Of a stretch of 64,000 bases of DNA, positions 1,954 through 36,181 are shown in pieces (the first letter of the stretch is position 1; each line of letters opens with the position of its first letter). The notes under the pieces are model-generated. The model did not search any database. It had not been told where the DNA came from and worked only from the letters and a program-made list of their open reading frames with translations. Source of the DNA: Bacteroidota bacterium (lineage in GTDB: Bacteria > Bacteroidota > Bacteroidia > UKL13-3); contig JAIXSO010000003.1 in the NCBI GenBank assembly GCA_027484685.1, positions 1 to 64,000 on the forward strand. Direction: 5' to 3'. Made by a program: the position numbers and the translations under genes.

Positions 1954-2547
1954 ATGTACTTTAAAATTATAATTTTCTTTTGTTTACTATTATTACTCAA
2001 TGCTTGTGGAATTGGGCGTTACCATAGTTTAAACTTAGTTAGGCCAGATAAAAATACCTCTACCACATTAGTAAAACCAAAACATAAAACTAAAAAGGTA
2101 ACTGAAATTATTAGCGCAGATTCTGTAATTGCTCAAATAACTGAAGAAGATGGTTTAACTAAAACAATAAATACAATTTCAGAAAGAACCGATAATTTAG
2201 TGATTGCTTTTCTTAAAAAACCATCTCAACAAGCTAAAAAAGTAAAACTTGGTATGAAAGAAAAAATGATGTTGACTTTATTAAAAAATAAGTTTGAAAA
2301 AATAAATGAAAAGTATAAAATAAATACATCAAATAAAAATTTACTAAAACCATATTCACCAAATAAACCTGATTTGAATTCTTGGTTTTTGTATTTCTTA
2401 ATTATTTTTGCATTTCTTTTATCATTAATAATTGGAATAGTATTACTGTCTATTGATTTAAATTCAGCTTTACGATTACTAACACTTGCTTTTGTTCTTT
2501 TCATCATTATTCTCCTAGTTGACTCTCCACATTGGAATTTTGGCTGA
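1954..2547 (+). CDS. Tandem paralogous lipoprotein, copy 1
   Basis: The 197-residue protein begins with a type II signal peptide whose lipobox LLNAC places the lipidated Cys at 18. It is followed by GIGRYHSLNLVRPDKN, which is nearly identical in the two downstream paralogues. A Lys/Ser-rich middle part contains SADSVIAQITEEDGLTK. Two hydrophobic segments (about 144-167 and 172-189) end the protein. The family is unknown to me. A lipidated N-terminus combined with two C-terminal membrane helices suggests both ends are in the inner membrane (inference). The three copies diverge most near the C-terminus. Confidence 0.75.
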   Translation: MYFKIIIFFCLLLLLNACGIGRYHSLNLVRPDKNTSTTLVKPKHKTKKVTEIISADSVIAQITEEDGLTKTINTISERTDNLVIAFLKKPSQQAKKVKLGMKEKMMLTLLKNKFEKINEKYKINTSNKNLLKPYSPNKPDLNSWFLYFLIIFAFLLSLIIGIVLLSIDLNSALRLLTLAFVLFIIILLVDSPHWNFG

Positions 2548-2564
2548 AATTTTTATTTTTTGTC

Positions 2565-2636
2565 AAAATTAAACTCAATGCCCAAAATTTTGTTGATTTA
2601 ATTAAAGTGTATTTAGAAGTATTTGGAGAAAAATAA
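2565..2636 (+). pseudogene. Fossil duplicate of the 3' end of the gamma-carbonic-anhydrase gene
   Basis: Read in the frame of 2565, this stretch encodes KIKLNAQNFVDLIKVYLEVF followed by GEK and a stop. The genuine C-terminus of the protein at 1403-1933 reads KIKINAQSYVDLSKVYLEVF then EG. Eighteen of the first 22 residues can be matched or are conservative, and the DNA also aligns. Nothing upstream of it resembles the rest of that gene. It is therefore the left edge of a segmental duplication that copied the gene tail together with the following lipoprotein gene. Confidence 0.8.
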
Positions 2637-2667
2637 AAAGTTTTCAACTCGTAAAATCGTCCAACTT

Positions 2668-2715
2668 CCGTCAGACGATTGCGCGCTAGGCTTTGCGTGG
2701 CAAGGCGTCAGACGG
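2668..2715. repeat. 48-bp imperfect palindrome between lipoprotein copies 1 and 2
   Basis: The arms CCGTCAGACG (2668-2677) and CGTCAGACGG (2706-2715) pair with a single A-A mismatch. Inside them, TTGC and GCAA extend the stem. The related element at 3398-3445 sits at the same place before copy 3. It is GC-rich compared with its surroundings. It could be a dispersed extragenic palindrome or a processing or termination hairpin; it lacks a following T tract. Confidence 0.7.
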
Positions 2716-2739
2716 ATATTTAAAATAATACAAAAAGTT

Positions 2740-3369
2740 ATGCATTTCAACCTTACTAAATCAATTGTTTTTATTTGCTTGCTAATACTGCTTAATGCTT
2801 GTGTAATTGGGCGTTACCATAGTTTAAATTTAGTTAGTCCAGATAAAAATACCTCTGCCACATTAGTAAAACCAAAACATAAAACTAAAAAGGTTGAAAT
2901 AGAATACAATTCAGATTCTGCAATTGCTCAAATAAATGAAGAAGATGGTTTAACTGAAACTGCAAATATTGTTTCTGAGAAAACAGAAACTTTAATAATT
3001 CCTTTTCTTAGAAAATCTTCCATAAATGCTAAAAAAGGAAAGATTGGATTGAAGGAAAAAATGGTGTTGAGTTTATTAAACAGTAAGATTGAAAGGCCAA
3101 TTGGTAACCATGATTTATATGAATCAATTAAAAAACAAATAGATCCCAAACGTAGTCTTATAGGCGCTTTTGAAAAGGCAGTTTTGATTATTATAGGTAT
3201 TTTGACATTACTCATTGGAATTGTATTTTTGGTTGTCAAATTTGGCGGTGGTATAAATTCTGGAGGTCTAGATTTTTTGTTTTTTATTATTGTTATTTCA
3301 TTTTGGATATTAGTACCAATTTTAATAGTTGCTCTGTTTATCAATTTTATAATTAAGATATTTAGATAA
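2740..3369 (+). CDS. Tandem paralogous lipoprotein, copy 2
   Basis: I place the start at ATG 2740, because the signal peptide (MHFNLTKSIVFICLL) and lipobox LLNAC begin there. A longer reading from TTG 2623 would run through the palindrome and lacks a signal peptide. The 209-residue product shares IGRYHSLNLVSPDKN and the KPKHKTKKV segment with copies 1 and 3. It ends in two hydrophobic helices separated by a Gly-rich turn (GGGINSGG). Function unknown. Confidence 0.75.
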   Translation: MHFNLTKSIVFICLLILLNACVIGRYHSLNLVSPDKNTSATLVKPKHKTKKVEIEYNSDSAIAQINEEDGLTETANIVSEKTETLIIPFLRKSSINAKKGKIGLKEKMVLSLLNSKIERPIGNHDLYESIKKQIDPKRSLIGAFEKAVLIIIGILTLLIGIVFLVVKFGGGINSGGLDFLFFIIVISFWILVPILIVALFINFIIKIFR

Positions 3370-3397
3370 TGTTTAATTTATAAAAATTGTGCCACTT

Positions 3398-3445
3398 TCG
3401 TCAGACGATTGTGCGCTTGGTATTGCGAGTCAAGGCGTCAGACGG
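3398..3445. repeat. Palindrome between lipoprotein copies 2 and 3
   Basis: Arms CGTCAGACG (3399-3407) and CGTCAGACG (3436-3444) form the same A-A mismatched stem as at 2668-2715. The loop is diverged but recognisable, and the flank GGATATTTAAA is shared. The two elements are about 70% identical and lie at equivalent positions, so they were probably copied together with the lipoprotein genes. Confidence 0.7.
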
Positions 3446-3476
3446 ATATTTAAATTAACACAAGATATAAAAAGTG

Positions 3477-4073
3477 ATGCGTTTCAACCTTATTAAATCA
3501 ATTGTTTTTATTTGCTTATTAGCAATGCTTAATGCTTGTGGAATTGGGCGTTACCATAGTTTAAACTTGGTTAGGCCAGATAAAAATACTTCTGCCACAT
3601 TAGTAAAACCAAAACACAAAACTAATAAGGTTAAAATAGAATACAATTCAGATTCTGCAATTACTCAAGTAACTAAAGAAAATATTTTAACTAAGAGTGC
3701 AAATACTGTTTCTGAGAAAACAGAAATTTCAACAATTCCTTTTCTTAAAAAATCTCTCAAAAATACTACGAAAGTAAAGATTGGATTGAAAAAAAAAGGA
3801 GTATTTAATTTAGTAGAAAATAAAATTCCTTTTTCTAAAAACAATAAAAATATTAAGCATTATAAAGAGCAAAATAAATGGAAGCCTAATTATGATTATG
3901 ATCCCTTCGCTTTTGATTTTGAAATATTTCTTATAATTTTATTATTGAGTTTTTTTATAATCGGATTACTTACACTTCCGTTTAATGTTGTTGTTGGGTT
4001 ATGGATAATCGGTGTTGTGTTAGCTATTATATTCTTAATTGCGGTTATAAAAAGACTTTCATCAACAATATAG
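3477..4073 (+). CDS. Tandem paralogous lipoprotein, copy 3
   Basis: The start is ATG 3477 (an adjacent GTG at 3474 is less likely). The signal peptide ends at lipobox MLNAC and is followed by GIGRYHSLNLVRPDKN, identical to copy 1 here. The region around NSDSAIT is closer to copy 2. The 198-residue protein ends in two hydrophobic segments. The central part is strongly diverged and Asn/Lys-rich. The gene is the third member of the tandem array; function unknown. Confidence 0.75.
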   Translation: MRFNLIKSIVFICLLAMLNACGIGRYHSLNLVRPDKNTSATLVKPKHKTNKVKIEYNSDSAITQVTKENILTKSANTVSEKTEISTIPFLKKSLKNTTKVKIGLKKKGVFNLVENKIPFSKNNKNIKHYKEQNKWKPNYDYDPFAFDFEIFLIILLLSFFIIGLLTLPFNVVVGLWIIGVVLAIIFLIAVIKRLSSTI

Positions 4074-28324: not shown

Positions 28325-28741
28325 ATGGAAACCGAAAACTTTGCACAAAAAGCCAAAAGAGTAGCAGTAAACACAACCAAAAAGGTACTTTTAATTTTAA
28401 CAATTTTACTAATTGGAATATTTGCTTTTTTTTATTGGGGTAAATACGAAAGTGGAATTATGGCAGGTAAAGTTTTACGCATCAGCCAAAAAGGATTTAT
28501 TTTTAAAACCTATGAAGGCAAACTAAATTTAGAAACTTTTGGTGCTTTAAAAGGCACTAGCCCAATTGCTGAATCATTCGATTTTTCTGTAGAAAGTGGC
28601 GATACAACAGTTATAAATCAATTGGAACAAGTTTCGTTATCGGGCGAAAGAGTGAATTTATATTTTATAAAACGTTATATGACTTTTCCATGGCGTGGCG
28701 AATCAAAATACTTTGTTACCCAAGTAGAAAGATCGAAATAA
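28325..28741 (+). CDS. Small membrane-anchored protein, conserved in Bacteroidota
   Basis: I start at METENFAQKAKRVAVNT (28325), giving 138 residues with one membrane helix (about 20-38) and an extracytoplasmic beta-rich domain containing GKVLRISQKGFIFKTYEGKL and NLYFIKRYMTFPWRG. Homologues are often labelled 6-phosphogluconate dehydrogenase in databases, but no Rossmann fold or active-site motif is present and I do not accept that name. Function unknown. It is followed 7 bp later by the first of two matching palindromes. Confidence 0.65.
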   Translation: METENFAQKAKRVAVNTTKKVLLILTILLIGIFAFFYWGKYESGIMAGKVLRISQKGFIFKTYEGKLNLETFGALKGTSPIAESFDFSVESGDTTVINQLEQVSLSGERVNLYFIKRYMTFPWRGESKYFVTQVERSK

Positions 28742-28748
28742 CTTATAT

Positions 28749-28797
28749 AAAAATCCCCGAAATTTGTCAGTTGAACTGACAAATTTCGGGGATTTTT
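28749..28797. repeat. Near-perfect 49-bp palindrome, left copy
   Basis: The arm AAAAATCCCCGAAATTTGTC continues with AGTT, then a single central G (28773), then the exact complement ending GGGGATTTTT. The same palindrome with a central C lies directly after the ATPase gene (29992-30040). With A and T tracts at its ends it can act as a bidirectional terminator. A promoter-like TATACTTG (28801-28808) follows and leaves almost no leader before ATG 28813. Confidence 0.85.
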
Positions 28798-28812
28798 ATT
28801 TATACTTGCAGC

Positions 28813-29994
28813 ATGAAAGTTAATCGAATTGCTAAAAATCAGATTGAAAAACTACTCAAACAATTTCCAGCGGTTGGGCTTGTTGGACCTAGGCAATGTG
28901 GTAAAACTACCATTGCACTTACCATTCAAAAAGAGCTAAAAAACAATGCTGATTATTTTGATTTAGAAAGTCCGGCTGACTTGCGAAAGTTTAGTGATAT
29001 AGAGTTTTTTTTAAGTCAGAATCAAAATGCTAATTTTATTATAGACGAAGTTCAGCGATTACCTGAACTTTTTCCTGTATTGCGTTCTGTTATAGATAAA
29101 AAAAGAAAAGCGGGAAGGTTTTTGTTACTAGGTTCAGCCACTCCAGAAATGGTTAAAGGTGCATCTGAATCGTTAGCTGGTAGAATTTATTATATAGAAG
29201 CACATCCATTTAATATTACTGAATTACCTCAAAAACTAAATACACAAACTAAGCACTGGTTTAGAGGTGGTTTTCCTGATGCTTACACTGCCAAAAATGA
29301 TGAAGCTTGGTTTTTATGGATGGATGGTTTTGCTAGAACTTTTGTGGAAAGAGATTTAAATTCATTGTTTGGAACTAATTTTTCGCCTCAAATTATGTTT
29401 AGATTATGGCGTATGTTAGCACACCATCATGCAGGAATTTGGAATGCAAACTCTTTTGCCAAAGGACTTGACATAAGCCAAACTACTACTAATCGTTATC
29501 TTGATCATTTGGAAGGTGCATATATGATTAGAAAACTAAATCCATTTCATATCAATATAAAAAAGCGTTTGGTAAAAAGTCCAAAAGTTTATATTAGAGA
29601 TAGCGGTTTATTGCATTACTTATTGGATATTCATAACACAAAAACTTTGTTTAATCACATGGCCGTTGGTAATTCGTGGGAAGGTTATGTAATTGAACAA
29701 ATTATTCAATTATTACCTAGAACTATTCAGCCTTATTACTACAGAACACATGATGGAAGTGAAGTAGATTTGGTATTAATAAAAGGTATTAAACCTATTG
29801 CTTGCATTGAAATAAAATATTCTACATCACCAACTGTTTCTAAGGGATTAACAGAAAGTATTAAGGATTTAAATTCGAAAAATAATTTTATTGTTACTCC
29901 ATCAAAAGAAAATTCTTACTTTATTAACAAACAAGTGGAAGTAGTAGGATTAACAAGCTTTTTGGCTGATATTTTACCGAATATTATAAAATAA
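28813..29994 (+). CDS. AAA-like ATPase with DUF4143 C-terminal domain
   Basis: The 393-residue protein has Walker A GPRQCGKT (25-32), Walker B FIIDEVQRLP (75-84), the sensor-like LLGSATPEM, a winged-helix-like middle part, and a C-terminal nuclease-fold segment SEVDLVLIKGIKPIACIEIK. The spaced E/D...ExK pattern in it suits a PD-(D/E)xK-like fold, active or not. Such proteins are scattered as solitary genes in bacteria and archaea, and their role is unsettled. Here the gene fills the space between two matching palindromes, and its stop codon lies within the right one. Confidence 0.88.
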   Translation: MKVNRIAKNQIEKLLKQFPAVGLVGPRQCGKTTIALTIQKELKNNADYFDLESPADLRKFSDIEFFLSQNQNANFIIDEVQRLPELFPVLRSVIDKKRKAGRFLLLGSATPEMVKGASESLAGRIYYIEAHPFNITELPQKLNTQTKHWFRGGFPDAYTAKNDEAWFLWMDGFARTFVERDLNSLFGTNFSPQIMFRLWRMLAHHHAGIWNANSFAKGLDISQTTTNRYLDHLEGAYMIRKLNPFHINIKKRLVKSPKVYIRDSGLLHYLLDIHNTKTLFNHMAVGNSWEGYVIEQIIQLLPRTIQPYYYRTHDGSEVDLVLIKGIKPIACIEIKYSTSPTVSKGLTESIKDLNSKNNFIVTPSKENSYFINKQVEVVGLTSFLADILPNIIK

Positions 29995-30040
29995 AATCCC
30001 CGAAATTTGTCAGTTCAACTGACAAATTTCGGGGATTTTA
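29992..30040. repeat. Near-perfect palindrome, right copy
   Basis: It repeats the 28749-28797 element (CCCCGAAATTTGTCAGTT, a central C at 30016, then AACTGACAAATTTCGGGG) and pairs further outward to about 29987-30045. Its TAA at 29992-29994 is the ATPase stop codon. Because each copy is a palindrome, the central G versus C makes the two copies exact reverse complements of each other over the core. Confidence 0.85.
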
Positions 30041-30277
30041 TTTTAGATTTCTATTAACTTTTATACACATTTCTTTCAATTCTAGCCAAATTATCTTTTA
30101 TATAAATAATCATTTATTGAAGTTTAAGTCAACTTACCAATTAAAAATATTGAAGTTTTTCTGTTAAACTTATAAAACTATTCCATACTTCATCATTCAT
30201 AGTTTCTAATTCCTACATTTTCATTCAAAATCCAACATCCATAATCCAAAATTTAAGTATTTTCTTATCTTGCAGCC

Positions 30278-33151
30278 ATGTCAGAAAAGAAACTCTTTTT
30301 GCTAGATGGAATGGCTTTGGTGTACCGTGCTTATTTTGCTTTTAGCAATAATCCACGTATCACCAGTTATGGCTTTAATACTTCCGCAATTTTTGGGTAT
30401 GCCAATACCGTTTTAGATATTTTAAAAAAAGAAAAACCAACTCATATTGGCGTTTCGTTCGATACTTCAGAACCAACTGCTCGACATATAGAATTTGAAG
30501 CTTATAAAGCCCATCGTGAGGAAATGCCAGAAGGTATTTCAACTGCATTGCCATACATACGCCAACTTACCGAGGCATTAAATATTCCATTATTAATTAT
30601 GCCTGGCTATGAAGCCGATGATATAATTGGAACGTTAGCAAAAAAGGCCGAAAAAGATGGTTTTAAAGTATTTATGATGACACCTGACAAAGATTTTGGT
30701 CAGTTGGTAAGCGAAAATATTTTTATTTATAAACCTGCCCGCATGGGCAATGACTACGAAATACTTGGAGTGCCTGAGGTATTAAAACGTTGGGAAATTA
30801 CCGATGTAAAACAAGTAATTGATATTTTAGGCATGTGGGGCGATTCGGTAGATAATATCCCTGGAATACCAGGAATTGGTGAAAAAACTGCTAAACTTTT
30901 GGTTCAAAAATATGGCAGTATGGAAGGATTATACGAACATACTCATGAGCTAAAAGGCAAGCAAAAAGAGAATGTAATCAATAACAAAGAACAAGCTTTT
31001 TTATCGAAACGATTAGCGACTATTGATTTAAATGTGCCTATAGAATTTGATGAAAATGCATTGATTTTAGACCCACCAAACAAAGAAGCTTGCGAAGAAT
31101 TATTTGCCAAATTAGAGTTTAAAACCATGGCTGCCCGTGTATTTGGAACTCAAATTACAGTTGGAGGAACTACATTTACCTCCAACCAAAAAGCTGATGA
31201 AAATAAGCAAGGCCCCGCAAATGGAGGATTTGATTTATTTAACCCTGCTCCAGTTAAAGAGGCACCATCAATAAGTAATAACGAAAGTGAATTACAACTT
31301 GATTTTACAGCCGAAGAAAGCAGTACACCTAAAAATAATATTGACAACACTGCACATGATTATGAGTTAGTAGATACAGCCGAAAAACAAGCAACTTTAT
31401 TGCAAACACTTTTGCAGCAAAAAGAAATTTGTTTTGATACTGAAACTACTTCGCTTGAAACTTTGGATGCTGATATTGTGGGACTATCGTTTTCGTTTGA
31501 AGCACATAAAGCTTTTTACGTGCCTTTTACTACAAATTTTGATGAAGCTAAAGCATTGTTAAATACATTTAAACCAGTATTTGAAAGTGAAACTATTTGT
31601 AAAATTGGTCAAAATATAAAATACGATTTAGGTATTTTAAAACAATACGATATTACTTTAAAAGGACCATTATTTGATACCATGTTGGCTCATTATTTAA
31701 TAGAGCCTGATATGCGCCACGGCATGGATTACCTAAGTGGGATTTATTTAAACTATGAACCTGTTTCCATTACTACCTTAATTGGTAAAAAAGGAAAAGG
31801 GCAATTAAATATGCGCGATGTAGCTATTGAAAAAATTAAGGAATACGCTGCCGAAGATGCTGATATTACTTACCAATTGGCACAGAAGCTAATGCCCGAA
31901 GTTGTAGAAAAAGAAGCCAAACAATTACTAGATGAAATAGAAATTCCTTTAATTGATGTATTGAGCGACATGGAGCGCGAAGGAGTAAAAATTAACAAAG
32001 AGTTTTTACTTCAATACAGCAAAGAACTAGAAACTGATATTGCAGCGTTAGAAAAACGTATTATTGAATTAGCTGGAAAACCATTTAACATAGCCTCACC
32101 GAAACAGTTGGGCGAAATTTTATTTGATCATTTACAATTAGACCCCAAAGCTAAAAAAACCAAAACTGGCCAATATCAAACAGGCGAAGATGTTTTACAA
32201 AAATTAAGCGAGCACGAAATAGTTCAATGTATTTTAGATGTGCGCCAGTTAAGTAAGCTAAAATCAACTTATGTAGATTCATTGCCTGAGTTAATTAATC
32301 CAACAACTGGTAGAGTTCATACTTCGTTTAACCAAGCAGTGGCCGCTACTGGAAGGCTTTCAAGCACCAATCCTAACGTTCAAAATATTCCAATTAGGAC
32401 CGATAAAGGAAAAGAAATACGCAAAGCATTTATTCCACGTAATGAAGATTATGTGCTACTAAGTGCCGATTACTCACAAATTGAATTACGCATTATAGCT
32501 GCCATGGCGCATGAAGAAGCCATGATTGAAGCATTTAAAAACAATTTAGATATTCATGCAGCTACTGCTGCAAAGGTTTATGGAATTCCATTAGAAGAAG
32601 TTACTGGCACCCAACGTAGAAATGCTAAAGCTGTTAACTTTGGAATTATTTACGGACAATCAGCATTTGGTTTGGCTGAAAGTTTAGGCATTCCACGCAA
32701 AGAAGCTGCTCAAATTATTGATGAATATTGGAAGCAATATCCACGCATAAAAGCATACATGAGCGAAACCATAAATACCGCTAAAGAATATGGTTATGTA
32801 GAAACTTTAAAAGGACGCAGAAGGTATTTACGAGATATCAATTCTGCTAATTTTACTGTAAGAGGTTTTGCTGAACGAAATGCCATTAACGCGCCAATTC
32901 AAGGTAGCGCAGCAGATATGATTAAGATTGCCATGATTAACATTTTTGATAGGATGAAAAATTCGAAATCCGAAATTCAAAAATCGAAAATGATATTGCA
33001 AGTGCATGATGAGCTTTTGTTTGATGTACACAAAGATGAAGTGGAAGCCATGAAAAAATTAGTGGTTGAAGAAATGGAAAATGCCATGCAAATAGCTGTT
33101 CCAATTAAAGCCGAAGTAGGTGTTGGCGAAAATTGGTTGGAAGCGCATTAG
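30278..33151 (+). CDS. polA: DNA polymerase I
   Basis: The 957-residue enzyme has all three domains: the 5'-3' exonuclease (1-300; FLLDGMALVYRAYFAF, GYEADDIIGTLA, GVPE...DSVDNIPGIPGIGEKTA), the 3'-5' exonuclease (about 370-560; CFDTETTSLE with Asp and Glu at about 387-389, and YAAEDADITYQL), and the polymerase (about 600-957; motif A LSADYSQIELRII near 728, motif B RRNAKAVNFGIIYG, motif C QVHDELLFDV near 909). The retained DxE argues for active proofreading. A low-complexity linker lies at about 300-360. TTATCTTGC just upstream resembles a -7 element with almost no leader. Confidence 0.97.
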   Translation: MSEKKLFLLDGMALVYRAYFAFSNNPRITSYGFNTSAIFGYANTVLDILKKEKPTHIGVSFDTSEPTARHIEFEAYKAHREEMPEGISTALPYIRQLTEALNIPLLIMPGYEADDIIGTLAKKAEKDGFKVFMMTPDKDFGQLVSENIFIYKPARMGNDYEILGVPEVLKRWEITDVKQVIDILGMWGDSVDNIPGIPGIGEKTAKLLVQKYGSMEGLYEHTHELKGKQKENVINNKEQAFLSKRLATIDLNVPIEFDENALILDPPNKEACEELFAKLEFKTMAARVFGTQITVGGTTFTSNQKADENKQGPANGGFDLFNPAPVKEAPSISNNESELQLDFTAEESSTPKNNIDNTAHDYELVDTAEKQATLLQTLLQQKEICFDTETTSLETLDADIVGLSFSFEAHKAFYVPFTTNFDEAKALLNTFKPVFESETICKIGQNIKYDLGILKQYDITLKGPLFDTMLAHYLIEPDMRHGMDYLSGIYLNYEPVSITTLIGKKGKGQLNMRDVAIEKIKEYAAEDADITYQLAQKLMPEVVEKEAKQLLDEIEIPLIDVLSDMEREGVKINKEFLLQYSKELETDIAALEKRIIELAGKPFNIASPKQLGEILFDHLQLDPKAKKTKTGQYQTGEDVLQKLSEHEIVQCILDVRQLSKLKSTYVDSLPELINPTTGRVHTSFNQAVAATGRLSSTNPNVQNIPIRTDKGKEIRKAFIPRNEDYVLLSADYSQIELRIIAAMAHEEAMIEAFKNNLDIHAATAAKVYGIPLEEVTGTQRRNAKAVNFGIIYGQSAFGLAESLGIPRKEAAQIIDEYWKQYPRIKAYMSETINTAKEYGYVETLKGRRRYLRDINSANFTVRGFAERNAINAPIQGSAADMIKIAMINIFDRMKNSKSEIQKSKMILQVHDELLFDVHKDEVEAMKKLVVEEMENAMQIAVPIKAEVGVGENWLEAH

Positions 33152-33171
33152 TTGAGAGTTGAGAGTTGAGA
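33151..33171. repeat. Three-unit tandem heptamer GTTGAGA
   Basis: GTTGAGA is repeated three times right after the polA stop codon, followed by variants GTTGTTA and GTTGATA. Such word-like spacers recur in this window (see the findings). It is a simple repeat with no visible coding role. Confidence 0.7.
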
Positions 33172-33210
33172 GTTGTTAGTTGATAGGTTTTGTTACAGTT
33201 ATAAAATCTA

Positions 33211-34017
33211 TCAAATTATTAATCTATTTTCTATTCCTAATTGCTTACCTTTTTGTTCGTTTAAAATATCTTTCAAATCAAATTCCGTGATGTCGTATTC
33301 ATTGCAAAAATCCTTTTCAGAATATAAAATGCCAAGAGTATATTTCATGTTTTGATATGCTTTATAAATCTTTTCTCTATCTCTGTCATAGTTAAATTCA
33401 GTTTCTGAAGCTTCATGTAATGAATTTAACAATTCAAAAATTACTGGATTAGTTATTCCGCAAATTTGCGTAGCTTCATCATTGGTAAAACCACTGTTTT
33501 TTAGTTGAAGATAAACATTATAAATCTCTGCAAAATGGCTAATTTTACTAATAAATGATTGGATGGGTTTGTTAATAGTAATATTCCAATACCTATCTTT
33601 TTTTATTAGTTTTCTTAACTGATAAGGAGGATATTCAAATTTATAATTTAGCAAGTTTAACAATGCTTCATTGCCAGAATTATTTACACAATGAACTATC
33701 AAATAAAACTTGGTAAATCGTCCAAATATATCATCAAATTCATTGAATTGATATTCTAAATAAGGTTCAGTGCTTGCCAAAAAATTGCTTAGTAATTCAT
33801 TCACCACTTTAGCATCTTCTTTAGGAAGCATTTCTAAAATGGTTTGAAATTGTTCATGATTTACAATTAGCATTTGTTCATTTTGGTTAGTAAAATTATG
33901 AATAGCGCTATTTATAAAAAGGAATATTTCATCATCGTCATTATTAGGAACTAACATCCTATTTAACTTTATTTCTGTAAAATAATTGATATTATATATT
34001 GGTGATTCTTCTATCAT
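33211..34017 (-). CDS. Hypothetical protein of the WYL-linked cassette
   Basis: The 268-residue soluble protein is not recognised. Its first half is rich in Asp, Asn and Phe. The C-terminal part holds two helix-turn-helix-like stretches, GFTNDEATQICGITNPVIFE and YSEKDFCNEYDITEFDLKDI, which may hint at nucleic-acid binding (inference). It is the last of three genes on this strand, 8 bp after the preceding one. Low GC and unfamiliar content suggest an accessory gene. Confidence 0.7.
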   Translation of the reverse strand: MIEESPIYNINYFTEIKLNRMLVPNNDDDEIFLFINSAIHNFTNQNEQMLIVNHEQFQTILEMLPKEDAKVVNELLSNFLASTEPYLEYQFNEFDDIFGRFTKFYLIVHCVNNSGNEALLNLLNYKFEYPPYQLRKLIKKDRYWNITINKPIQSFISKISHFAEIYNVYLQLKNSGFTNDEATQICGITNPVIFELLNSLHEASETEFNYDRDREKIYKAYQNMKYTLGILYSEKDFCNEYDITEFDLKDILNEQKGKQLGIENRLII

Positions 34018-34025
34018 TTTGGGGT

Positions 34026-34751
34026 TTATGGTTTAAGTGAAAATAAATATCTTTCTAAATCAACTGCTCGTTTAATATTCCCGTTTTTTATATAAGGATA
34101 TGAAGTTCTTAGCCAATTACAATATTCTTCATAAAGCAATTGGTTTTTTAAATTATTTGATAAATACTTTGATTTATTTGACAGCTTTTCTTGAGAAAAA
34201 TTATTTGCTATAACGCTATCCAAAACACCACAATTTTCAGGATTCAAAAACATTATTAATTTTGATGCAAATGAAAATCCAAGTTGTTTTAAAGTTGTGG
34301 CAAACTTAATAGCTTCTGCAAAGGAATTTTTTGAAGCGAGTTTATAAACATTATCAATTGTTGAACAAATTTCGTTTAGTTCTGAATTTTCAATAACAAT
34401 AATGCCTTGACAATCTGATTTTATTTTCCCTTTGTTCTCAACAAAACCTGTTAATATTACTTTGCTAAATGCCCTACCCTCTTTGGTTTTATTGTTTTTA
34501 CTATTCCCAACATGACCCCAAAAAATAACAGATAAGTAACCAGTTAATTTTTCTAATTTGTTTGAACTTAACAATTGATTTTTTATGTGAATTTCTACTT
34601 CAGTTATATTTGATTTAATCTCAGAAAATATTTTGTTATCCTTTAAAGTCAATACCCAATTAGGATATTCATATTCTGGAATTTGTTCAACAATAATTTC
34701 TGAGTTAATTTTACTTAGATTTCTAAAATAACTTAATATTTCGTTACTCAT
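34026..34751 (-). CDS. Hypothetical protein with an OGG-like segment, WYL-linked cassette
   Basis: The 241-residue protein contains KFATTLKQLGFSFASKLIMF followed by LNPENCGVLDSVIANNFS. This resembles the helix-loop-Asp segment FASKllrFLdP...vlDs shared by 8-oxoguanine glycosylase OGG-like families often found in mobile or defence contexts. The rest (GYLSVIFWGHVGNS, KVILTGFVENKGKIKSDCQG) is not recognised. A base-excision or DNA-binding function is possible, not shown. It is the middle gene of the three-gene unit. Confidence 0.65.
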   Translation of the reverse strand: MSNEILSYFRNLSKINSEIIVEQIPEYEYPNWVLTLKDNKIFSEIKSNITEVEIHIKNQLLSSNKLEKLTGYLSVIFWGHVGNSKNNKTKEGRAFSKVILTGFVENKGKIKSDCQGIIVIENSELNEICSTIDNVYKLASKNSFAEAIKFATTLKQLGFSFASKLIMFLNPENCGVLDSVIANNFSQEKLSNKSKYLSNNLKNQLLYEEYCNWLRTSYPYIKNGNIKRAVDLERYLFSLKP

Positions 34752-34822
34752 AATTTTTCTTTTTAATTGGTTATATATTTACTCTCAAAAGTAATTTGTT
34801 TACTCACTTTTCCTCATTGCAT

Positions 34823-35110
34823 TTATCGTTGGCTTAAGCGGGTTATCGTTTCCATCAGTTTGCTTTTTAATTCATAAATATTCTGAATATTTGGGTCATT
34901 TATTTCATAAATATTTTCTAAATCAATCTTTACTTCAGTTCCTAATTCCTGCTCTTTGTTCCAATCTTTCCAAGCACCTTCGCAAGCTAAGTTTAATGCA
35001 AAGCAATCTAGTTCTACAATCGTTTCGTTTATAAATGTAACCAATTTCCCAAGTTGTTCATTGTAATTATTATTGGGTTGGGTTGTGTTTATTTTTATTA
35101 TTTTAGCCAT
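34823..35110 (-). CDS. Small hypothetical protein, first gene of the WYL-linked cassette
   Basis: Starting at MAKIIKINTTQPNNNY (35110), this 95-residue acidic protein contains NEQLGKLVTFINETIVELDC and ends in a helix ELKSKLMETITRLSQR. No family is recognised. Its start is 59 bp from the divergent WYL-regulator start, so both promoters must share that spacer. The gene after it starts 71 bp downstream. Confidence 0.65.
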   Translation of the reverse strand: MAKIIKINTTQPNNNYNEQLGKLVTFINETIVELDCFALNLACEGAWKDWNKEQELGTEVKIDLENIYEINDPNIQNIYELKSKLMETITRLSQR

Positions 35111-35169
35111 TGAATTGTAGCACAAAATTAAGTTGCCAGTTCCTACTTTTTGTAGTAACCAAATTTATT

Positions 35170-36150
35170 ATGAACGAAAAGAAATCAGCACATGAAAGGT
35201 ACTTAATAATTGATAATTTATTGACCAAAAATGCCAATCCTACTAAAGAATTTATTTCGAAAAAATGTGGTGTTTCTGTTAAAGCTATTGAAAAAGATTT
35301 TGATAAGATGCGAAATGATAATAAGCTAAATTTTTATGCTCCAATAGTTCATAATCCAAAAGGAAATACCTATTCTTACGCTGACCCTAATTTTTCAATC
35401 AATAAACTTACCTTAAAAAATGAAGACATTGATGCACTTAGAAATATGATGGTCATTTTAAAAAGATATGAACAACTTTCGTTATTGAAACCATTAAAAG
35501 TTGTTATCAATAAAATAGAAGCATTGCAAAATATTTCAATTGCATCAAATGCGGAAGATATTTCAGAATTTATTCAAGTTGAAATTCCTAGAGATTCAAA
35601 AGGATTGAATCATGTTACTGAACTATATAATGCCATCAAAAACCGCCTTACTATTGATTTTATTTACAATAGATTTAAAACTTGTAAAATTCATACTGTT
35701 GACCCGTATTTATTAAAAGAATACAAAAATCGTTGGTATTTGACAGGCTATTATCATCAAGAAAATCGTTTTGCAACTTTTGCTTTAGAAGGAATTGAAA
35801 ATTTAAAATCAAAAAATACTGAGTTTAAAATAAAGACTAACTTTTCAAGAACTGATTACTTCAAACACGCTTTTGGAATTACTGTAATTAATGAATATTT
35901 ACCAGTAAGGGTTATTCTGAAATTTAATCATAAACAAGGATTGTATATTAAATCACAACCAATTCACAAAACTCAGGAAATTATTAAAGACACTAAGAAA
36001 GAACTAGTAGTATCAATTACAGTAATTCCAACTTATGAATTAACAAGTCAAATTTTAAGTTATGGTAGCGATGTAGAAGTTGTAGACCCAAAGTTTTTAA
36101 GAGAAAATATCAAATCTATTCTAACTAATAACTTAGCGAATTATAAATAA
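35170..36150 (+). CDS. WYL-domain transcriptional regulator
   Basis: I start at MNEKKSAHERYLIIDNLL (35170), giving 326 residues. The N-terminal winged helix (TKEFISKKCGVSVKAIEKDF) is followed by a WYL domain (LTIDFIYNRFKTCKIHTVDP, then YKNRWYLTGYYHQENRFATF) and a C-terminal WCX-like part. WYL regulators sense nucleic-acid-related ligands and in several cases control phage-defence genes (BrxR, CapW). It is divergent from the three-gene unit at 33211-35110 and is its likely regulator. Confidence 0.85.
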   Translation: MNEKKSAHERYLIIDNLLTKNANPTKEFISKKCGVSVKAIEKDFDKMRNDNKLNFYAPIVHNPKGNTYSYADPNFSINKLTLKNEDIDALRNMMVILKRYEQLSLLKPLKVVINKIEALQNISIASNAEDISEFIQVEIPRDSKGLNHVTELYNAIKNRLTIDFIYNRFKTCKIHTVDPYLLKEYKNRWYLTGYYHQENRFATFALEGIENLKSKNTEFKIKTNFSRTDYFKHAFGITVINEYLPVRVILKFNHKQGLYIKSQPIHKTQEIIKDTKKELVVSITVIPTYELTSQILSYGSDVEVVDPKFLRENIKSILTNNLANYK

Positions 36151-36181
36151 GTTTACCATTTAAGTTAAAAAAACATTTCAT

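Follow-up and report, generated by a model that had tools for sequence, protein, structure and literature searches.

A mobile four-gene module with a WYL/WCX regulator and a probable OGG-like DNA glycosylase in Bacteroidota: a candidate anti-phage system

Gene Content of the Locus

In a 64-kb stretch of a Bacteroidota genome (64,000 nt, hereafter the window), a set of four genes is flanked by polA on one side and by a small gene adjoining a thiolase gene on the other. A WYL/WCX transcriptional regulator faces three co-directional genes, g1, g2, and g3 (Table 1), with g1 and g2 separated by 71 bp, and g2 and g3, by 8 bp. The open reading frames are as described in the original prediction, which was made from the sequence of the window. 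A longer variant of the regulator starting from TTG at 35110 is not supported, since its ortholog in the second copy of the module (L032, see below) also begins with MNEKK.

Table 1. Features of the four-gene module and of the corresponding interval in related genomes; positions refer to the window unless preceded by a locus label.
Feature	Position	Strand	Description
WYL/WCX transcriptional regulator	35170-36150	+	326 aa from ATG; predicted ligand-gated repressor of the facing operon
Divergent promoter region	35111-35169	.	59 bp between g1 and the regulator
Candidate operator CTACTTTTTGTAG	35143-35155		Interrupted palindrome in the 59-bp divergent spacer; read from sequence
Candidate TAnnTTTG element	35123-35130	-	For the g1 operon; read from sequence
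g1	34823-35110	-	95 aa from ATG; acidic, pI 4.7; uncharacterized
Second copy of the candidate operator pattern, TTACTNNNAAAAGTA	34779-34793	+	In the g1-g2 spacer; the other copy at 35144-35158, minus strand
g2	34026-34751	-	241 aa; basic, pI 9.0; probable OGG-like (HhH-GPD type) DNA glycosylase
g3	33211-34017	-	268 aa; acidic, pI 4.8; uncharacterized
ParE-type toxin-antitoxin pair	L020:7886-8170 (G395), also L022 (G402)		In the polA-thiolase interval, where the window has the WYL module

Insertion Site

The module is absent from all nine genus mates of the host, eight of which carry polA at 82-97% identity. Homology with the genus mates on the polA side stops at 33151-33189, and on the right side homology with G400 resumes at 36165; hence, with 33189 and 36165 as the borders, the insert comprises the four-gene module alone. 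The slot between polA and the thiolase gene varies in relatives, being occupied by an OmpA-family gene in G400 and by a ParE-type toxin-antitoxin pair in two other genomes (Table 1), and is otherwise rearranged. At 0.265, the GC content of the module is below that of the window (0.324), polA (0.353), and the thiolase gene (0.399); this is supporting and not decisive, as a few other genes of the window are equally GC-poor. The surroundings of the module contain no target-site duplication exceeding 8 bp.

Just upstream of polA (window 28737-30050) lies a lone AAA/DUF4143 ATPase gene (28813-29994, plus strand; PADLOC candidate PDC-S01, E 1.8e-86; Pfam DUF4143, E 1.2e-41), with a copy of the 45-bp palindrome AAATCCCCGAAATTTGTCAGTTNAACTGACAAATTTCGGGGATTT on each side. 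Exactly one copy of this palindrome is present in four of the nine genus mates; in G397, G398, and G403 it is located upstream of polA without the ATPase gene, and the G403 copy has symmetric paired changes. Given these single copies, the AAA/DUF4143 gene looks like a cassette whose insertion duplicated a unique palindrome. At positions 1954-4073 of the window there are three tandem paralogous genes of small lipoprotein-like proteins, GC-poor and sharing the start GIGRYHSLNLVRPDKNTS..LVKPKHKT.

The Regulator and Its Divergent Promoter

The regulator matches the Pfam domains WYL (PF13280, E 9.2e-12, residues 148-213) and WCX (PF25583, E 8.8e-11, residues 245-318), and has the signature KNRWYLTG at residues 186-193. 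Its N-terminal HTH is below the Pfam threshold (E 0.05-0.14), so the wHTH-WYL-WCX domain order of the BrxR/CapW type is present with the HTH part sub-threshold. The original assignment to the BrxR/CapW build thus holds for the domain architecture but hardly for sequence kinship, which is marginal: the phmmer comparison with the PDB structure of BrxR (7t8k) yields E 0.0084 over 94 residues. The phmmer value, a proxy since both the program and the database are different, falls short of the published threshold for BrxR homology (BLASTP E < 1e-5). In PADLOC, the regulator matches generic WYL models only.

WYL proteins are common in the bacterial family of the host, and most of them are ordinary chromosomal genes. 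We considered WYL genes of relatives, 36-42% identical to the regulator, as possible orthologs, and rejected them, since their chromosomal neighbors are different from those of the module and often shared among them; the WYL gene of the module therefore represents a distinct lineage. Repressors with the wHTH-WYL-WCX architecture are known to govern defense operons (PMC9122601, PMC9122588), and the binding sites of CapW and BrxR are near-palindromes located in their promoter regions (PMC9122588, PMC9122601). Other WYL regulators answer to DNA damage (PafBC, PMC11804915) or genotoxic stress (SiwR, PMC10693628).

The divergent spacer contains an interrupted palindrome (Table 1), which is a candidate operator for the WYL protein. 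The candidate TAnnTTTG element ahead of g1 corresponds to the Bacteroidota –7 consensus. In the alignment with the L032 spacer, the places matching the candidate operator and the TAnnTTTG element are taken by a near-palindrome, CCTAATAATTATAGG, and by TACCTTTG, respectively; both spacers have an interrupted palindrome and, ahead of g1, a TAnnTTTG element. The pattern TTACTNNNAAAAGTA, built from the two sites listed in Table 1, has only these two exact matches in 64 kb.

g2 and the OGG-Like Family

According to the original prediction, none of the three facing genes belonged to a recognizable family. For g1 and g3 this holds, with no family found in Pfam, PADLOC, NCBIfam, and PHROGs (in the latter, chance-level matches only), whereas g2 resembles PF21790, the family of putative 8-oxoguanine DNA glycosylases (OGG-like). 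The Pfam match (E 1.5e-5, 25.2 bits) covers residues 152-237 and is confined to the C-terminal half of g2 and to family positions 116-201, that is, the C-terminal 86 positions. As the score is about 2 bits under the gathering cut-off of 27 bits, we call g2 OGG-like and do not count it as a certified member of PF21790. None of the Pfam matches of g2 is to a UDG family.

A profile was built from four PF21790 proteins of other Bacteroidota. Scored with it, g2 exceeds 998 of 1000 shuffled versions of itself, while the score of g3, taken as a control, is reached by 828 of 1000 shuffles, which amounts to no signal. The middle protein of L032 has no Pfam match to PF21790; its score with the same profile is reached by 23 of 1000 shuffles, and by eight of 1000 if g2 is added to the profile. 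Aligned by eye, the candidate catalytic residues K164 and D178 of g2 correspond to the K/D residues of L003, L004 (LSTY.K ... LILD), and L005. In the same visual comparison, both middle proteins show a Lys/Asp pair spaced by 12-14 residues (K164/D178 for g2 and K132/D144 for the L032 protein), as well as a hydrophobic tail of the L..LF form. Based on the profile and shuffle scores, the Lys/Asp pair, and the tail, g2 is probably an OGG-like DNA glycosylase, and the middle gene of L032 may encode a very diverged one. HHalign of the single g2 sequence against the four-row OGG alignment is not significant, and the AF2 model of g2, built from a single sequence with no homologs, has pLDDT 40.

PF21790 genes are rare: sampling of 395 Bacteroidota genomes yielded four, of which one (L005/L067) scores below the curated cut-off. 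No biochemically tested member of the family was found. In this small sample, all four genomic contexts are accessory. Two are type I restriction loci including HsdM/HsdS/HsdR, HATPase-NOV_C, and AAA_21: the PF21790 gene of L066 (9464-10096) has HsdS on one side and, on the other, a HATPase/NOV_C protein with HsdR after it, and that of L064 (7090-7962) is located upstream of HsdM and HsdS. In the other two, with the neighbors read by eye, the PF21790 gene is found among ParE-like and PIN-like genes and a recombinase fragment (L065), or adjoins a tyrosine recombinase and a transposase-like gene (L067). The presence of OGG-like genes within or beside type I restriction loci (L066, L064) is unexplained in a restriction system.

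g1 and g3

The conserved core of g1 is ALNLACEGxWKDWNKEQ. In PADLOC, g3 matches only Cmr5 at chance level (E 0.03), and g1 and g2 have no match; NCBIfam yields nothing for the module genes. The AF2 model of g3, based on a two-row alignment, has pLDDT below 42. No known toxin or antitoxin family was observed among g1-g3 in Pfam, PADLOC, and NCBIfam, and no gene of the module falls into a known housekeeping family, so the original prediction stands in this respect.

A weak g1-like gene of 99 aa (E 2.2e-5 in its own genome) ends a three-gene minus-strand operon at L063:8556-10506, in which a PAD_porph-type deiminase (339 aa) is encoded along with an unknown protein of 227 aa; a toxin-antitoxin-like pair then follows. 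Judging from this locus, g1-type proteins may partner other effectors.

A Second Copy and Remnants in Other Genomes

A search of 64 genomes of the order with a joined g1+g2+g3 query identified the complete layout, with the same gene order and orientation, at an unrelated genomic site in another genus (G471 contig C157; L032, identical to L036; CANHJJ010000157.1). This is a 5.3-kb contig of a Bacteroidetes MAG, 70% complete. When g2 and g3 were used as single queries against plasmids, phages, IMG/VR, and GTDB contigs, nothing or only the L032 contig was obtained. The complete module is missing from 62 of the 64 genomes, and two complete copies are known.

The regulator is 62% identical to its L032 ortholog, which sits in the same divergent position; L032 g1 is longer by a 62-aa C-terminus, and g1 aligns with its N-terminal part at 45% identity; and g3 is 60% identical to L032 g3 over 220 aa. 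The middle gene of L032 encodes 227 aa, and its similarity to g2 is undetectable by BLAST. The distance between g1 and g2 is 68 bp in L032, compared to 71 bp here, and the 8-bp spacer between g2 and g3 corresponds to a 4-bp overlap. For the WYL gene, g1, and g3, codon comparison gives dN of about 0.26-0.40 against dS from 1.6 to saturation, hence all three are under purifying selection. The flanks have nothing in common: the module adjoins polA here, whereas in L032 its neighbors are an ssb-like gene and a PIN_2 gene.

The four genes are thus a real unit, which travels together in a second genus, and this check named with the original prediction goes in its favor; the module is, however, a stand-alone insertion with no defense island around it. 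By sequence comparison, the middle gene appears either to have been exchanged or to evolve far faster than its kept partners, and a middle gene changing beside constant partners is the pattern expected for a moving target.

Two further genomes of the host's family retain decayed fragments of g3, one of 122 aa (40% identical) adjoining a PIN_2 gene (L033), and the other of 73 aa (45% identical; L034). These fragments and the weak g1-like gene of L063 are the only homologs found without the WYL gene, so the linkage of the module genes to the regulator, on which the original prediction depended, largely persists. PIN_2-domain proteins encoded at L032:596-1291 and L033:550-996 are 46% identical, and their genes adjoin g3 or its remnant. 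The suggestion that the extra C-terminus of L032 g1 is the tail missing from L032 g3 was dropped, as 3% of shuffles reach the score and BLAST sees nothing; a match of G468 to the g1 tail was spurious.

Possible Function and Alternative Explanations

We consider the four genes to be a mobile module whose most probable function is defense against phages or mobile elements, and would give this reading an even chance. The WYL/WCX protein would keep the operon low by acting on the 59-bp divergent promoter, until a ligand derived from infection or damage frees the promoter; if CapW and PafBC are taken as a guide, this ligand would be single-stranded nucleic acid or a small nucleotide. The operon would then yield g2, an OGG-like glycosylase predicted to remove particular bases, probably modified ones, from phage DNA, and the resulting abasic sites would block replication and transcription. 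As conserved partners of g2, g1 and g3 may provide targeting, licensing, or restraint. In this scheme the gene order, the conservation of the module at two sites, selection, patchy occurrence, the WYL/WCX domains, and the resemblance of g2 to PF21790 are observed, and repression, the ligand, base excision, defense, and the parts played by g1 and g3 are inferred.

The defense reading is suggested by the occurrence of the unit at unrelated loci in two genera under purifying selection; by its absence from genus mates, the variable slot, and low GC; by the resemblance of g2 to PF21790, whose relatives are found in restriction-modification or toxin-antitoxin/recombinase contexts; and by the role of glycosylases as anti-phage effectors (PMC11078745, PMC13160076) and of WYL repressors in the control of defense operons (PMC9122601, PMC9122588). 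Against it are the lack of a defense island and of credible PADLOC matches for g1-g3, the sub-cut-off PF21790 score over the C-terminal half only, and the existence of just two complete copies, one from a short contig, as well as the mostly ordinary chromosomal nature of WYL genes, the non-significant HHalign result, and the low pLDDT of the AF2 models. The defense or stress module of the original prediction is partly supported, as a non-housekeeping unit with a putative glycosylase compatible with defense, but no defense-system call was obtained in Pfam, PADLOC, NCBIfam, or PHROGs.

An accessory DNA-repair or genotoxic-stress operon, in which g2 would excise damaged host bases of the 8-oxoguanine type, the WYL protein would be a DNA-damage sensor of the PafBC/SiwR sort, and g1 and g3, repair helpers, seems to us unlikely. 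The only family resembling g2 is named for 8-oxoguanine excision, WYL regulators do answer to DNA damage (PafBC, PMC11804915) and genotoxic stress (SiwR, PMC10693628), and the insertion adjoins polA, by chance or not. Still, repair genes are normally vertical and widespread, while the module is missing in nine of nine genus mates and, in its complete form, in 62 of 64 genomes; PF21790 relatives reside in restriction and mobile-element contexts; and the divergence of the middle gene past recognition, with partners at 45-60% identity, is unusual for a constant lesion. Another possibility is a toxin-antitoxin or addiction cassette, where g2 would be a toxin damaging host DNA, g1 and/or g3 would be the antitoxin, and the WYL protein an autoregulator, the cassette spreading selfishly and perhaps aborting phage infection as well. 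Two acidic partners beside a basic g2 in both loci, the small size and patchy presence, the related PIN_2 toxin genes (46% identical) adjoining both g3-bearing loci, L032 and L033, and the ParE-type pair occupying the same slot in genus mates fit such a cassette. However, specific neutralizers should change along with g2, whereas g1 and g3 are conserved next to a middle gene that is either replaced or no longer recognizable, and three operon genes with a separate WYL regulator are not the usual type II layout, which makes this explanation improbable in our view.

That there is no functional unit, the WYL gene and unrelated open reading frames being accidental neighbors drifted into a variable intergenic slot, could be proposed given the variability of the slot within the genus and the g3 remnants standing alone in L033 and L034. 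At L032, an unrelated site in another genus, the four genes keep their order, orientation, and spacing, with strong purifying selection, which already contradicts this explanation and makes it very hard to believe.

More broadly, the anti-phage module might represent an undescribed class of mobile immune systems of Bacteroidota, with a fixed chassis (the WYL switch and the g1 and g3 families) and exchangeable base-excising effectors; we propose this tentatively, as a possible if doubtful extension. The chassis would sense invasion, and the interchangeable glycosylase would decide which modified DNA is destroyed. Were the defense reading true, base excision as an anti-phage weapon would reach the OGG-like helix-hairpin-helix fold, beyond the uracil-glycosylase fold of Brig1, and would operate under a WYL switch along with two protein families unnamed in any library; the rare OGG-like genes in type I restriction loci would become candidates for the same activity. 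In a layout with a conserved chassis and a variable effector, the chassis proteins could be used to find further exchangeable effectors.

Comparison With Known Systems

The module is undescribed and can be regarded as a variant of known ideas, namely, WYL-controlled defense operons and defense glycosylases. Among DNA glycosylases, Brig1 (PMC11078745) and the 5hmC glycosylase (2026; PMC13160076) have a proven anti-phage effect. The module shares with them the proposed base excision from phage DNA leading to abasic sites, as well as the accessory, patchy occurrence in defense or mobile contexts. Unlike g2, which resembles the OGG-like HhH family and is accompanied by a WYL regulator and two conserved partners, Brig1 belongs to the uracil-DNA-glycosylase superfamily and protects as a single gene. 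The match of g2 to PF21790 proteins includes the K...LD and L..LF tail motifs, the K and D being aligned by eye, and these relatives also reside in accessory loci; on the other hand, its N-terminal 150 residues have diverged and its score is below the curated cut-off.

Similar to BrxR and CapW of the BREX and CBASS systems (PMC9122601, PMC9122588), the regulator has the HTH-WYL-WCX order, a possible effector operon adjoining it, and a near-palindrome in the promoter region. In contrast to them, its sequence similarity is marginal (E 0.0084), its neighbors are neither BREX nor CBASS, and its gene is divergent from the presumed targets. The WYL/WCX architecture and a DNA-repair-like gene among the probable targets are also reminiscent of PafBC and SiwR (PMC11804915, PMC10693628), but these regulate chromosomal stress genes in mycobacteria, whereas the WYL protein considered here belongs to a mobile module.
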